DNA of 64,000 nt, from contig QEVJ01000024.1 in the NCBI GenBank assembly GCA_003576845.1, forward strand, positions 1-64,000, written 5' to 3'. Origin of the DNA: Planctomycetota bacterium (GTDB taxonomy: Bacteria; Planctomycetota; Planctomycetia; Pirellulales; PLA5). The notes beneath the pieces are model-generated. The model searched no databases. It was not told the origin of the DNA and saw nothing but the letters and a program-made list of their open reading frames with translations. Below, piece after piece: positions 22,699 to 50,038 of this stretch; position 1 is the stretch's first letter, and each line of letters starts with the position of its first letter. The translations under genes were made by a program, and so were the position numbers.

Positions 22699-22840
22699 AC
22701 TTAGCCCCCGGTGAATACACCGGGGGCAATCGACGTCAGCTTGGCAACGAAACGCAAGCGTGGCGCCGCGGCCACGGCAGTACTTTTAGCGACACGACGG
22801 CCAAGCGCATTGCCCCCGGCGTATTCACCGGGGGCTAAAT
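22699..22840. repeat. REPIN-like doublet, family A, copy 1
   Basis: Left palindrome at 22704-22727 with arms GCCCCCGGTG / CACCGGGGGC and loop AATA; right, inverted copy at 22812-22835 with one arm mismatch (GGCG for GGTG). The inner spacer is 84 nt, the shortest of the six doublets. The outer flank is TTA on the left and TAAAT on the right. Degenerate extra right-end fragments follow at 22849-22870. It lies between the 3' ends of convergent genes. Confidence 0.9.
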
Positions 22841-32612: not shown

Positions 32613-32644
32613 ATTTAGCCCCCGGTGAATACACCGGGGGCAAT
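32613..32644. repeat. REP-like palindrome, family A, copy 2 (single half)
   Basis: Only the left half occurs: ATTTA, then the palindrome at 32618-32641, then AAT. No right half is present before the aminotransferase gene, whose stop codon lies 8 nt away. This is the one singlet of the seven loci and may have lost its right half when sequence was deleted. Confidence 0.88.
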
Positions 32645-33793: not shown

Positions 33794-33949
33794 ATTTAGC
33801 CCCCGGTGAATACACCGGGGGCATTGGACGCGACGCTCGAAGAAACGGCGAGCATTGGCGAGCGAACCCACCGGGGGTGCGTCGTGCATCGCGACGTGGT
33901 TTCGCGCGGTCGAGCATTTTGCCCCCGGTGTATTCACCGGGGGCTAAAT
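33794..33949. repeat. REPIN-like doublet, family A, copy 3
   Basis: Left palindrome 33799-33822, right inverted copy 33921-33944, 98-nt inner spacer. The left outer flank is ATTTA and the right TAAAT. The spacer contains a stray CCACCGGGGGTG near 33869, a fragment of another half. A degenerate extra end (GGGGGCCAAAT) follows the right half. Confidence 0.9.
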
Positions 33950-35020: not shown

Positions 35021-35191
35021 ATTTAGCCCCCGGTGAATACACCGGGGGCAGAACACTCGACGCACGATCACAACGTCCCTGCTCGCAAAAGCGCCGGCGG
35101 CGTGAGTCGTCGTCGCGAGTCGCTCGGCGAGCCGTGGCGCGACTTCGAGCGCCGCGACGATTGCCCCCGGTGTATTCACCGGGGGCTAAAT
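35021..35191. repeat. REPIN-like doublet, family A, copy 4
   Basis: Left palindrome 35026-35049 and right inverted copy 35163-35186, with the longest inner spacer (113 nt). The inner left flank is AGA instead of AAT. The right end TAAAT supplies an ATG at 35190-35192, in frame with the next gene, though the ATG at 35214 is more likely the true start. Confidence 0.9.
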
Positions 35192-35213
35192 GTGGGCTAC
35201 GTTGTTGAGCTAT

Positions 35214-36458
35214 ATGATCGACGCTGCGAACCGTTTGACCGCCGAAGCTGTGCCCGCGCCGCGGCGGCTCGTTTCGCTCGATGCTTATCGCGGCGCGACG
35301 ATGCTGCTCATGGCCAGCGAGATCATGCACGTCCCCGCGACGCTCAAGAAGCTCGACAGCTATTCTCAAAGTCCAACGCTGCAATCGGTCGTCCATCAGC
35401 TCGACCACCTTGCGTGGGCGGGATGCACGTTATGGGACATGATCCAGCCGTCGTTCATGTTCATGGTCGGCGTCGCGCTGCCGTTTTCGCTCGCCAGTCG
35501 CCTGGCTCGCGGGCATGTCTTCTCGCGGATGCTCGTTCATGCGCTGTGGCGGAGCGTCCTCCTCGTCGCGCTCGGCATCTTTCTCCGCTCGGTCGGCCGG
35601 CCGATGACGAATTTCACGTTCGAGGATGTACTTACGCAGATCGGCCTGGGCTATCCGTTCTTGTTCCTGCTCGGTTTCGCGCGGCCACGATGGCAATGGA
35701 CCGCCGCGGCGCTGATCCTCGTGGCATATTGGGCGGCGTTTGCGCTTTATCCCGAGCCGGGACCGGAATTCAACTATCCCGCGGTCGGCGTCCCGGCAAA
35801 CTGGCCGGAGCACTACGGCGGCTTCGCGTCTCACTGGAACAAGAACAGTAACTACGCGGCCTACGCCGACCAGTGGTTTCTGAATCTGTTTCCGCGGGAA
35901 AAACCGTTCCAATTCAACCGCGGCGGCTACTTGACGCTCAACTTCGTGCCTTCGCTCGCCACGATGATCTTCGGGCTGCTGGCCGGCGGGTTGCTGCGGT
36001 CACGGCGAACGGTGCGGGAGAAGGCCGCGATCCTCGTCGTCGCCGGTTTGACGGGCCTTGCCGTCGGTTGGACGCTCGATTGGCTCGGCGTTTGCCCGAT
36101 GGTCAAGCGGATCTGGACGCCGTCGTGGGCCATCTACAGCAGCGGTTGGGCAGCAATCGCGCTTGCGGCTTTCTTTGCGATCATCGATTGGGCCGGATTT
36201 CGCCGCTGGGCCTTCCCGCTCGTCGTGGTGGGCATGAACTCGATCGCCATGTACGTGCTCGTTCACCTTTCGTTCGGGTTCGTCAGCGGCAGCTTGACGA
36301 CGCACCTGAACTACGTTTCCGAGTCCTGGTTTGGACGGCCGCTATTCGAGGTTTTCGGCCAACCCTATCCGCCGATTGTCGAAGGCGCAATGGTGCTTGC
36401 TATCTTCTGGCTCATCAGCTTGTGGCTGTATCGCCGCGGCGCGTTCCTCAGAATTTAG
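35214..36458 (+). CDS. HGSNAT-like/DUF5009 membrane acyltransferase
   Basis: About 414 residues with 9-10 transmembrane segments. The N-terminal RLVSLDAYRGATMLLM is the signature of the heparan-alpha-glucosaminide N-acetyltransferase-like family; the conserved His-containing region includes SVVHQLDHLAWAGCTLWDMIQPSFMFMVGVAL. Eukaryotic members acetylate terminal glucosamine of glycans; bacterial ones are presumed to acetylate surface glycans. The TAG stop codon (36456-36458) lies in the left flank of the next family A repeat (ATT TAG), so the repeat provides the gene's terminus. Start: ATG 35214; an upstream ATG at 35190 lies in a repeat. Confidence 0.82.
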   Translation: MIDAANRLTAEAVPAPRRLVSLDAYRGATMLLMASEIMHVPATLKKLDSYSQSPTLQSVVHQLDHLAWAGCTLWDMIQPSFMFMVGVALPFSLASRLARGHVFSRMLVHALWRSVLLVALGIFLRSVGRPMTNFTFEDVLTQIGLGYPFLFLLGFARPRWQWTAAALILVAYWAAFALYPEPGPEFNYPAVGVPANWPEHYGGFASHWNKNSNYAAYADQWFLNLFPREKPFQFNRGGYLTLNFVPSLATMIFGLLAGGLLRSRRTVREKAAILVVAGLTGLAVGWTLDWLGVCPMVKRIWTPSWAIYSSGWAAIALAAFFAIIDWAGFRRWAFPLVVVGMNSIAMYVLVHLSFGFVSGSLTTHLNYVSESWFGRPLFEVFGQPYPPIVEGAMVLAIFWLISLWLYRRGAFLRI

Positions 36459-36613
36459 CCCCCGGTGATTACACCGGGGGCAATGCGCTCGGCCACACAC
36501 CGGCGCTATGCAGTGTGGGGTGGCGCCTTTTCGTCGCGGGCTTCGCGCGATGGCGTCACGGGTTTTCGTTGCGTCGGGCCGATTGCCCCCGGTGTATTCA
36601 CCGGGGGGTAAAT
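36453..36613. repeat. REPIN-like doublet, family A, copy 5
   Basis: Left palindrome 36458-36481, with loop ATTA rather than AATA; right inverted copy 36585-36608, last base changed. Inner spacer 103 nt. Its left end overlaps the stop codon of the acyltransferase gene. A degenerate third end (GGGGGCGAAAT) follows the right half. Confidence 0.9.
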
Positions 36614-47890: not shown

Positions 47891-49183
47891 ATGCCCGCCG
47901 ACGTTTCCCGCCGCTCATTCTTAGGCACAACTGCCTCCACCGCCGCCGCTTCGGCCGTCGCCACCGCCGCGACGACTTGGACCGCCAAGAGTTACGCCCA
48001 AATCAAGGGCGCGAACGACCGGATCGGCGTCGGGCTGATCGGCGCGGGCGTCATCGGCAATGCCCACATGGACGTGTTCAACAACTTGAAGGAAAAGAAC
48101 AACCTGCTGCCGGTCGCCGTGGCCGACTGCTGGAAGACGCGGGCCGACGCCGGACAAGCGAAGGTCAAGGCCGAGCATTCGCTGACCGACTATCGCAAGC
48201 TGCTCGACATGAAGGAGATCGACTACGTCACCGTCGCCGTGCCCGAGCATTGGCACTGGACGATGACGATCGATGCGATGGACGCGGGCAAGGCGGTGTA
48301 TTGCGAAAAGCCGATGACGCACTCGATTCCCGAGGCACAAGCGGTGATGAAGAAGCAGAAGGAGACCGGTCGCCCGCTGCAAATCGGCGTCCAGGCGATG
48401 TCGGACGACAGCTACATCACGGCCCGCGACGCGATTCGCAAGGGCGTTATCGGGCAAGTGATCCAAGCCCAGATCGAATACGTCCGCCGCTACGACGCGA
48501 AGGCCGGCCCGTGGCGCGAGCCGCAGGACGTCGCCAAGCACCAGAGCAAGCCGGCCGACCTCGACTGGGACGCCTGGCTCGGCTCGGCGAAGAAGATCGA
48601 CTGGAATCCGCACCATTATTTCGAGTGGCGCTGCTACTCGGCATACTCCGGCGGCATTTGCACGGACCTGTTCATTCACCGCATCACGCGGATCATGCGG
48701 GCGTGCGACTTGCTGTACCCGCGGCGCGTGGTCGGCATGGGCGGCATCTGGCAATGGCCCGACGGCCGCGATCTGCCGGACAACATCGAGATGATCTGCG
48801 AATATCCGCGCGGCATGACGGTGTACGTGCTGGGCACGATGAGCAACCGCGTGGGCATCGACCACCTGATCCGCGGCTATCGGGCGACGCTCTACTTCAC
48901 GCCGACGGGCTGGGTCGCCAAGGACAAGGACGGCAAGGTGCTCGCCGAGCACAGGAAAACCGGTGGCGAAGATCAAAACCTGCACCACACGAACCTGCAC
49001 AACCACCTCCGCAACGGGGAACCGCTCAACTGCCCCGTCGAGCTCGGTATGGCCGGCGTCGTGGCGGTGAACATGGCGAACGAAAGCTGGCGCACCAGCC
49101 AGATGATGGGCTGGGACCGGGAGAAAGAGAAGATGGTACCGGCGGATACGGTCAAGCAGAGCCACGAGCCGGAGAAGGCGTGA
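47891..49183 (+). CDS. Gfo/Idh/MocA-family oxidoreductase, Tat-exported
   Basis: 430 aa. SRRSFLGTTASTAAASAVAT is a twin-arginine signal. GVGLIGAGVIGNAHMDVF is the Rossmann NAD(P) motif; AVYCEKPMTHS is the conserved EKP; HRITRIMRACDLLYPRRVVG resembles the substrate-domain H-x-x-D region. Such exported enzymes carry bound cofactor and act on sugars or cyclitols in the periplasm. The ATG at 47891 was chosen; the frame is open upstream (47780) but lacks a signal-like start. A family A doublet begins 18 nt after the stop. Confidence 0.9.
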   Translation: MPADVSRRSFLGTTASTAAASAVATAATTWTAKSYAQIKGANDRIGVGLIGAGVIGNAHMDVFNNLKEKNNLLPVAVADCWKTRADAGQAKVKAEHSLTDYRKLLDMKEIDYVTVAVPEHWHWTMTIDAMDAGKAVYCEKPMTHSIPEAQAVMKKQKETGRPLQIGVQAMSDDSYITARDAIRKGVIGQVIQAQIEYVRRYDAKAGPWREPQDVAKHQSKPADLDWDAWLGSAKKIDWNPHHYFEWRCYSAYSGGICTDLFIHRITRIMRACDLLYPRRVVGMGGIWQWPDGRDLPDNIEMICEYPRGMTVYVLGTMSNRVGIDHLIRGYRATLYFTPTGWVAKDKDGKVLAEHRKTGGEDQNLHHTNLHNHLRNGEPLNCPVELGMAGVVAVNMANESWRTSQMMGWDREKEKMVPADTVKQSHEPEKA

Positions 49184-49201: not shown

Positions 49202-49357
49202 ATTTAGCCCCCGGTGAATACACCGGGGGCAATGTGCTTGCCATCGCATAATTGCATAACGCCGCCGATCGACGGGTCCGATGTGAGCGTAATGTGCAGA
49301 GTGCGCGTGGTCGCGTAGACACTTTATTGCCCCCGGTGTATTCACCGGGGGCTAAAT
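49202..49357. repeat. REPIN-like doublet, family A, copy 6
   Basis: Left palindrome 49207-49230, right inverted copy 49329-49352, inner spacer 98 nt; ends ATTTA and TAAAT. After the right half comes a degenerate third end (GAGGCTAAATGAGG) that reaches to the transposase start region. It flanks the RAYT-like gene on its upstream side. Confidence 0.92.
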
Positions 49358-49384
49358 GGAGGCCAGAGGCTAAATGAGGATGCC

Positions 49385-49873
49385 ATGAACCGGACGCTTG
49401 CCATCCTGTTCACGATGACGACTTACGGGAGGTGGCTGCGAGGGGATCGGCGGAATTGGGTCGACGACGGCGTGACCATGCCACCGGATCCGATTCTTGA
49501 AAAGAACGACCAACAGCGGTTGGAGCATGATCCGTACTTGTTTCGCGACGATGATTGGTGGACGATCGGGAATTGGATTGGACGCTCGCTCATCGAACGT
49601 AAGCAATTGCGGATTGGAGCCCTTACGGTTCAGGCATGGCACGTCCATTTCGTTGTCGCGGCGTCGGTACATCCGGTCAGCGACATCGCCAAATGCGCCA
49701 AGGATGCGGTCCGCTGGGGATTGAGGATCAAGCGGCCGATTTGGACCGAAGGTTACGACAAGCGGTATTGCTTCGACGAGGATGCCGTTTTCGCGCGCGT
49801 GCAATACGTCGAGCGCCACAACACGGAACGCGGCCGCCCGGCAAAGCCGTGGGATTTCATCGAAGTGTGGTAA
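49385..49873 (+). CDS. RAYT-like Y1 (IS200/REP-associated) transposase
   Basis: 162 aa. Features of the Y1/HUH transposase fold: an N-terminal TTYGRWLRGDRRNWVDDG, the wording of one REP-associated tyrosine transposase branch; the HUH pair in WHVHFVVAAS (His86, His88); and a C-terminal helix with the candidate catalytic Tyr141 in QYVERHNTERG. It is a single-domain protein, as are RAYTs and IS200 TnpA. The gene lies between two family A doublets (28 nt after the first, 7 nt before the second), exactly the RAYT-with-flanking-REPs arrangement. RAYTs nick and rejoin single-stranded REP DNA; they mobilise REPs but not themselves. Confidence 0.8.
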   Translation: MNRTLAILFTMTTYGRWLRGDRRNWVDDGVTMPPDPILEKNDQQRLEHDPYLFRDDDWWTIGNWIGRSLIERKQLRIGALTVQAWHVHFVVAASVHPVSDIAKCAKDAVRWGLRIKRPIWTEGYDKRYCFDEDAVFARVQYVERHNTERGRPAKPWDFIEVW

Positions 49874-49879
49874 CCGAAT

Positions 49880-50038
49880 ATTTAGCCCCCGGTGAATACA
49901 CCGGGGGCAATGCGGTCGACGCTACGAGTGCGCGGTCCACTGCAATCAACGTTTTGCCGCGACTCGAACGACTGGCGATGTCGCGCATTTTCACGAGAGA
50001 GAGTCTATTGCCCCCGGTGTATTCACCGGGGGCTAAAT
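49880..50038. repeat. REPIN-like doublet, family A, copy 7
   Basis: Left palindrome 49885-49908, right inverted copy 50010-50033, inner spacer 101 nt; ends ATTTA and TAAAT. Both halves are perfect. It lies between the transposase stop and the M32 carboxypeptidase start (13 nt upstream of its ATG). Confidence 0.92.

Follow-up and report, generated by a model that had tools for sequence, protein, structure and literature searches.

The 64,000-nt window analysed here (the whole stretch of Planctomycetota DNA, one part of a contig) contains a 162-aa reading frame set between two inverted pairs of REP-like palindromes, with further copies of the same palindromes spread upstream of it. This arrangement raises the question of whether gene and repeats form one system and, if so, to which family of REP-type transposases the system belongs and by what word its hairpins are marked. 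The original prediction had described the frame, with a His pair (H86 and H88 in WHVHF) and a candidate catalytic Tyr (Y141 in QYVERHN), and re-reading of the DNA bears this description out. It had also placed doublets of a single repeat family on both sides, correctly, but at distances of 28 and 7 nt; these are coordinate differences, the true spacing being 27 nt between the upstream doublet and the start codon and 6 nt between the stop codon and the downstream doublet. The features of the window are as follows.

22699-22840: doublet, same REP family
32613-32644, plus strand: lone REP, same family; every other copy in the window belongs to a doublet
33794-33949: doublet, same REP family
35021-35191: doublet, same REP family
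36453-36613: doublet, same REP family
49202-49233, plus strand: REP unit 1 (ATTTAG followed by a 10-bp stem, a 4-nt loop, and an inner AAT)
49326-49357, minus strand: REP unit 2, inverted; forms with unit 1 the upstream, REPIN-like doublet (92-nt spacer)
49385-49873, plus strand: Y1/HUH REP-type transposase gene, 162 aa, from reading frame and motifs; class-3-like, clade A "YDKR" (see below)
49742-49771, plus strand: codons for W120-TEGYDKRYC, aligned with W94-R104 of E. coli TnpAREP, where that protein contacts its guide; putative role here
49880-49911, plus strand: REP unit 3, 6 nt past the transposase stop
50007-50038, minus strand: REP unit 4, inverted; forms with unit 3 the downstream doublet (95-nt spacer)

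The four units around the gene are identical, perfect copies of ATTTAGCCCCCGGTGAATACACCGGGGGCAAT (0 mismatches). They make up two inverted pairs (49202-49357 and 49880-50038), both facing outward, and gene and doublets together fill the stretch from the stop, at 49183, of a GFO/IDH/MocA oxidoreductase gene to the gene for an M32 carboxypeptidase, whose ATG (50051) lies 12 nt beyond the end of unit 4. The transposase gene is present in a single copy in its own genome, as it is in nearly all carriers.

The repeat is not confined to this locus. Thirteen copies with up to three mismatches were found in the window, against none in 100 shuffled versions, and the 7.05-Mb genome (289 contigs) holds 97 copies of the 28-nt core at the same tolerance, the reversed control giving 0. 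These genome-wide counts combine pattern searches with about 60 fetched sites, the latter being the source of the genome-wide foot statistics. Folded as single-stranded DNA, one REP unit yields -14.9 kcal/mol (z -5.9) and one doublet -58.7 kcal/mol (z -9.9). In an alignment of 74 copies, conservation begins sharply at position -5 (a C occupies -6 in 73% of them), continues to +26 and fades gradually inward; the conserved outer word in this genome is (C)ATTTA, with the stem G directly after it. All 10 non-redundant doublets face outward. Outside the window most copies are singlets. A search for decayed partners of these singlets had a bimodal outcome, either a good partner or none, and most singlets outside the window lack a decayed partner. 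Singlets and doublets are conserved to the same degree, with mean pairwise identities of 0.946 and 0.950, respectively, among copies of the same loop type (0.931 and 0.918 overall). The doublet spacers (about 90-110 nt) are mostly unrelated to one another, scoring mostly at chance level in a spacer-homology test.

These properties can be set against those of REPINs, whose published description regards singlets as remnants of decay (Bertels and Rainey, 2011; PMC3116915). The doublets described here resemble REPINs (PMC3116915) in being made of two inverted REPs with outward feet and a less conserved spacer, and in their strong single-stranded hairpin. Unlike REPINs, most copies here are singlets, and doublets are not the more conserved form. 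Equal conservation of singlets and doublets, together with unrelated spacers, does not fit a simple model in which the REPIN is the mobile unit.

Several other observations concern the distribution and surroundings of the repeats. Twelve of the 13 copies in the window are doublet members; among 64 copies sampled from the rest of the genome, 5 are (Fisher P 2e-9). Intact doublets cluster near the transposase gene (22699-50038 of the window), with local spread and preferential conversion as candidate causes. Two loop variants, AATA and AACA, share the copies of this genome about equally, with a single known cognate gene between them. Of 33 AACA copies, 30 are singlets. In the segment 35186-36484, a reading frame (35190-36458) takes its ATG from the CTAAATG of one REP and its stop, TAG, from the ATTTAG of the REP that follows. 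Similarly, in one relative (L095) the transposase's own stop codon is supplied by the downstream REP.

The protein itself could be placed only through profile and fold comparison. Searched alone, it gave no significant match in Pfam, in NCBIfam or among the sequences of PDB chains; in particular, the NCBIfam search returned no match to NF047646, and the YIxxNP motif is absent, with YVERHN instead. A Glyoxalase match (E 0.06) in the single-sequence search was weak and was judged to be due to chance. To find homologs, tblastn was run on 392 genomes of the phylum and 397 of the order, and a named genome collection was scanned once. The sampling is centred on Planctomycetota, and the genomes are largely MAGs. 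The close group, at 47% identity or more, is referred to here as clade A. Six of 19 aligned clade A members reached PF01797 at E 0.1 or better (2.9e-7 at best), and the clade A profile matched solved IS200/IS605 transposases (2fyx, E 0.003; 2xm3/2xqc, E 0.005). Hence, the profile search proposed as a check by the original prediction came out negative for the protein of the window taken alone and positive for its family.

An AlphaFold2 model based on the aligned clade A sequences (pLDDT 85.8, pTM 0.79) has its elements in the Y1 order: beta 6-12, alpha 55-73, beta 77-82, beta 86-92, alpha 98-113, beta 125-129 and alpha 132-148. When the model was compared with the whole PDB by Foldseek, the top match was 4er8, the E. 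coli RAYT on its REP hairpin (E 2e-5, probability 1.00), and the next 28 were IS200/IS605-type chains, all of the top 29 being Y1 transposases. Poor modelling of the N-terminal third (residues 13-50) keeps the superposition loose, at a TM of about 0.5. The model thus has the fold on which the original prediction depended, with a RAYT-REP complex as the closest structure. The predicted metal-binding pair H86/H88 sits on strand 86-92 and Y141 in helix 132-148. Both His residues and W120 are invariant in the 19 aligned homologs, and Y141 nearly so. A Gln or Asn ligand is expected about four residues past the Tyr; clade A has His at Y+4 and Asn at Y+5, the latter (N146) occupying the position of the Gln of class 3. 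The gene evolves under purifying selection, dN/dS being about 0.17 between the two copies of one genome (G373, see below) and about 0.12 between a second pair of genes (L102 and L103).

Clade A is characterized by the motifs TTYGTWLRGD, an HxH pair, KCAKD, IWTxGYDKR[FY]CF (with YDKR nearly invariant) and YVERHN. Its distant homologs (25-40% identity) bear NHVH, W[TA] and Y----Q, the signature of class 3 TnpA_Y1 (PMC6006769). Alignment of clade A with class 3 by hhalign, the latter represented by planctomycete class-3-type proteins that we picked by motif, gave a probability of 100 and an E value of 9e-42 over 146 columns. In a maximum-likelihood tree, the 25 clade A rows and three aberrant rows form one group (support 99/91) that excludes 29 Y----Q rows as well as the class 1 and class 2 proteins. 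Clade A shares with class 3 a homology over the full length, including the N-terminal TTYGTWLxGD block, a distribution centred on Planctomycetes, and hairpins with a non-GTAG foot that flank the genes and are also dispersed over the genome. It differs from class 3, as defined by Y----Q and the foot CnGA (Quentin et al., 2018; PMC6006769), in having YVERHN (Y----N) and the foot TTAG (NTTA in the CnGA register), as well as WHVH in place of NHVH and YDKR[FY]CF in place of GGSxRxL after the conserved Trp. With the classical RAYT or TnpAREP (class 2, E. coli rayT) the locus has in common the HUH-Y1 core, the doublets flanking the gene, the combination of one gene with many dispersed cognate REPs, and the best structural match; in contrast, its foot is TTAG rather than GT[AG]G, YIxxNP is missing and there is no match at the sequence level. 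As clade A has neither the Y----Q and CnGA of class 3 nor the GT[AG]G of class 2, we term it a new class-3-like subgroup. Judged by sequence, then, the transposase is related to class 3 TnpA_Y1 but divergent, falling outside the published definition of that class, and is not a classical (GTAG) RAYT. The original prediction of a RAYT/REP pair with a different tetranucleotide holds for a Y1/HUH REP-type transposase, for cognate flanking repeats and for a foot other than GTAG; it does not hold for a RAYT in the class 2 sense, the nearest relatives being class 3. Since CnGA feet have already been reported in class 3 (PMC6006769), a non-GTAG word is in itself not new.

Clade A genes were found in 11 of the 397 genomes of the order. 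Two of the genes examined (L071 and L074) carry an in-frame stop, indicating gene decay in some genomes. Three intact relatives from one genus, nested in clade A (L075, L076 and L077), have lost the first His of the HxH pair (YVH or YLH) and have no flanking hairpins; they keep Y----N and the C-terminus and are likely repurposed or non-catalytic. One further clade A gene (L105) comes from a MAG labelled Vicinamibacteraceae (Acidobacteriota), either by cross-phylum transfer or from a misbinned contig.

Does the repeat go with the gene? At 27 non-redundant clade A loci, 82 strong hairpins lie within 300 nt of the gene (16.0 kb in total), 77 of them TTAG/CTAA-footed, versus 9 (4 so footed) at 600 nt or more (54.7 kb). 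Clustering at clade A genes is thus about 65-fold, across genomes whose stems differ. TTAG-footed hairpins occur on both sides of 23 of the 27 clade A genes and of 3 of 41 other class-3-like genes. From genome to genome stem and loop vary and TTAG stays, the exceptions within clade A including L105 (ATAG) and L010, whose outer words are partly not TTAG. A gene of this family found elsewhere without palindromes would have counted against the original prediction; the relatives keep flanking palindromes, of the same architecture and different sequence. The exact REP of the window (up to one mismatch) is present in 8 of the 397 genomes of the order, and exceeds 20 copies only in two clade A carriers, the genome under study (G000, 83 copies) and G455 (50); another carrier, G746, has 3. 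In five genomes of the order, 1-13 copies were found and no clade A gene was detected; these copies are possibly relics or reflect assembly gaps. The one other genome of the same genus that was compared also lacks the gene and has 0 copies of the window's REP; the genes that flank the locus are 75-85% identical there and lie on different contigs. Finally, among three near-identical MAGs, the downstream doublet is missing in L094 and present in L095 and L096. L094 and L095 differ at a junction with a TCATTT direct repeat, and the right flank of L096 is slightly different. This shows present/absent turnover of a REPIN, compatible with insertion or deletion.

A complete chromosome (G373) was found to carry two 94%-identical clade A copies (L189 and L190), each flanked by REPs; 6 of its 7 TTAG-footed REP sites (up to one mismatch) are at these two genes. 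The duplication extends about 440 nt beyond the REPs upstream and ends at the gene end on the other side. It was considered as evidence for transposition of gene plus REPs and was not taken as such, since its limits are not those of the REPs.

The original prediction had given TTTA as the outer word. As the local form, and as a word other than GTAG, this stands; across relatives, however, the outermost T varies (CTTAG and ATTAG are also seen), and the conserved word is TTAG, which shares its last three bases with GTAG. The same AG recurs more widely. Among 204 hairpins beside class-3-like genes, AG precedes a stem CC on exactly one side in 165 and on both in 16, with about 12% expected by chance. 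With the foot side chosen by AG, a choice that does not bias the two preceding bases (NN), the foot is TTAG in 61 of 62 scored clade A cases, ATAG in 7 of 7 in the YVRRHN group and AAAG in 12 of 12 in the YIERHN group; the Y----Q group has a mixture, mainly AGAG, AAAG, CGAG, TCAG, CCAG and ACAG. The published class 3 foot CnGA, read one base inward, becomes nGAG and fits the same NNAG rule. In the group that is sister to clade A, the foot co-varies with the residues following the conserved Trp: GYDKR goes with TTAG (L011), GYHF or GFHF with GTAG (two genes), GYC with TCAG (three genes), and GYW with ATAG or TTAG. The mutual information between group and NN is 1.44 bits (64 genes), above all of 2000 shuffles (0.84 at most), which ignore kinship. 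The segment W120-F130 aligns with W94-R104 of E. coli TnpAREP, the region that contacts the GTAG guide (PMC6006769). Tentatively, and at somewhat less than even odds, class-3-like REP transposases might be viewed as a series with the foot NNAG, with a constant AG and an NN that depends on lineage and is read by the post-Trp segment, amounting to a readable, perhaps swappable, specificity code. Nearly all feet in this wider family do read NNAG: TTAG with YDKR, ATAG with YVRRHN, AAAG with YIERHN, TCAG with GYC, GTAG with GYHF/GFHF, and NGAG, NCAG or NAAG with Y----Q. A search of the open-licence literature, which leaves subscription papers and preprints aside, turned up no report of TTAG-footed REPs.

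The same genome also houses a classical class 2 RAYT (L002, G000:C26:6994-7329), with YIEHNP, bracketed by GTAGGAGGCGAATCCTTTCGCC. The 21-nt core of its REP has 192 sites (up to two mismatches), and the copies inspected carry GTAG; many of these sites are paired in inverted orientation at a short distance of about 45 nt. One genome thus holds two REP systems that differ in their guides, TTAG and GTAG.

Other explanations of the locus deserve consideration. The gene could belong to a small insertion sequence, autonomous and of the IS200/IS605 type, with the palindromes as its ends and the dispersed copies as its MITE-like derivatives. The fold also matches insertion sequence transposases, the gene is patchy (the 11 carriers in the order, plus the Acidobacteriota-filed MAG), and G373 has its two REP-flanked gene copies and almost no other REPs. 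Like IS608 and ISDra2, the system combines the Y1 fold with the logic of a single-stranded hairpin and, presumably, a tetranucleotide guide. These elements have distinct left and right ends, however, whereas the gene described here has a complete, symmetrical outward doublet on each side; it is single-copy in its own genome and nearly all carriers, and the limits of the G373 duplication are not those of an element. We consider this explanation improbable. It is also unlikely, if a little less so, that the gene codes for a domesticated nuclease that processes REPs for some host purpose (in DNA or RNA), the spread of the repeats being historical. Such a role would agree with the purifying selection on the gene and with the equal conservation of singlets and doublets, and the intact frames of L075-L077, without the first His and all hairpins, suggest that repurposing does happen in the family. 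Against it, the same-genus genome without gene or REPs argues that there is no essential host role, and the sharp outer boundaries of the repeat and the REPIN variably present in near-identical MAGs suggest recent activity.

That the hairpins are ordinary terminators or RNA elements, standing next to the gene by coincidence, has a negligible probability. They are stable and intergenic, as terminators would be, but a T-run is absent, and the strict TTAG foot is on one side only; on these grounds the terminator reading was rejected. Nor would it account for doublets that all point outward, for clustering at clade A genes despite differing stems, or for the absence of the repeat from the same-genus genome.

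We conclude, with a probability of about 0.88, that the locus is a REPtron, in which a HUH/Y1 single-strand transposase, present in one copy, is accompanied by a REP hairpin family of its own, and that it belongs to a class-3-like lineage with the foot TTAG. What is observed is the fold (in the model), the motifs, the copies throughout the genome, the association of gene and REP, and the conservation of the foot. DNA binding, cleavage, mobility and a guide-reading segment would follow by analogy with E. coli TnpAREP and with IS608/ISDra2. The 32-nt unit would fold wherever the DNA is single-stranded, as, for instance, on the template of the lagging strand; with a metal held by H86/H88 and a ligand from the Tyr helix, Y141 would attack a nearby site picked via the TTAG guide, and transfer of the cut strand elsewhere would spread singlets and doublets. 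The invariant AG may serve a step common to the family, namely the choice of the cleavage site, while identity may be given by the two variable bases of the foot together with the residues that follow W120, which are YDKR in clade A. GTAG enzymes commonly cleave at the dinucleotide CT (PMC8266576), which is complementary to AG; cutting at CT is therefore predicted to be common to the NNAG family, with NN conferring identity. The sharp outer boundaries and the present/absent REPIN in near-identical MAGs point to recent activity.

Planctomycetota contain REP systems that searches limited to GT[AG]G overlook, and TTAG and GTAG systems can share one genome. REP-type transposases are thought to pick their hairpin partly via a four-base guide word. 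To our knowledge, nearly all of those studied use GTAG, making it hard to infer which amino acids read which base. In clade A and its cousins the guide word changes in nature (TTAG, ATAG, AAAG, TCAG, GTAG, NGAG), with the last AG constant and one short protein segment changing alongside. This natural series makes guide recognition directly testable through segment swaps.
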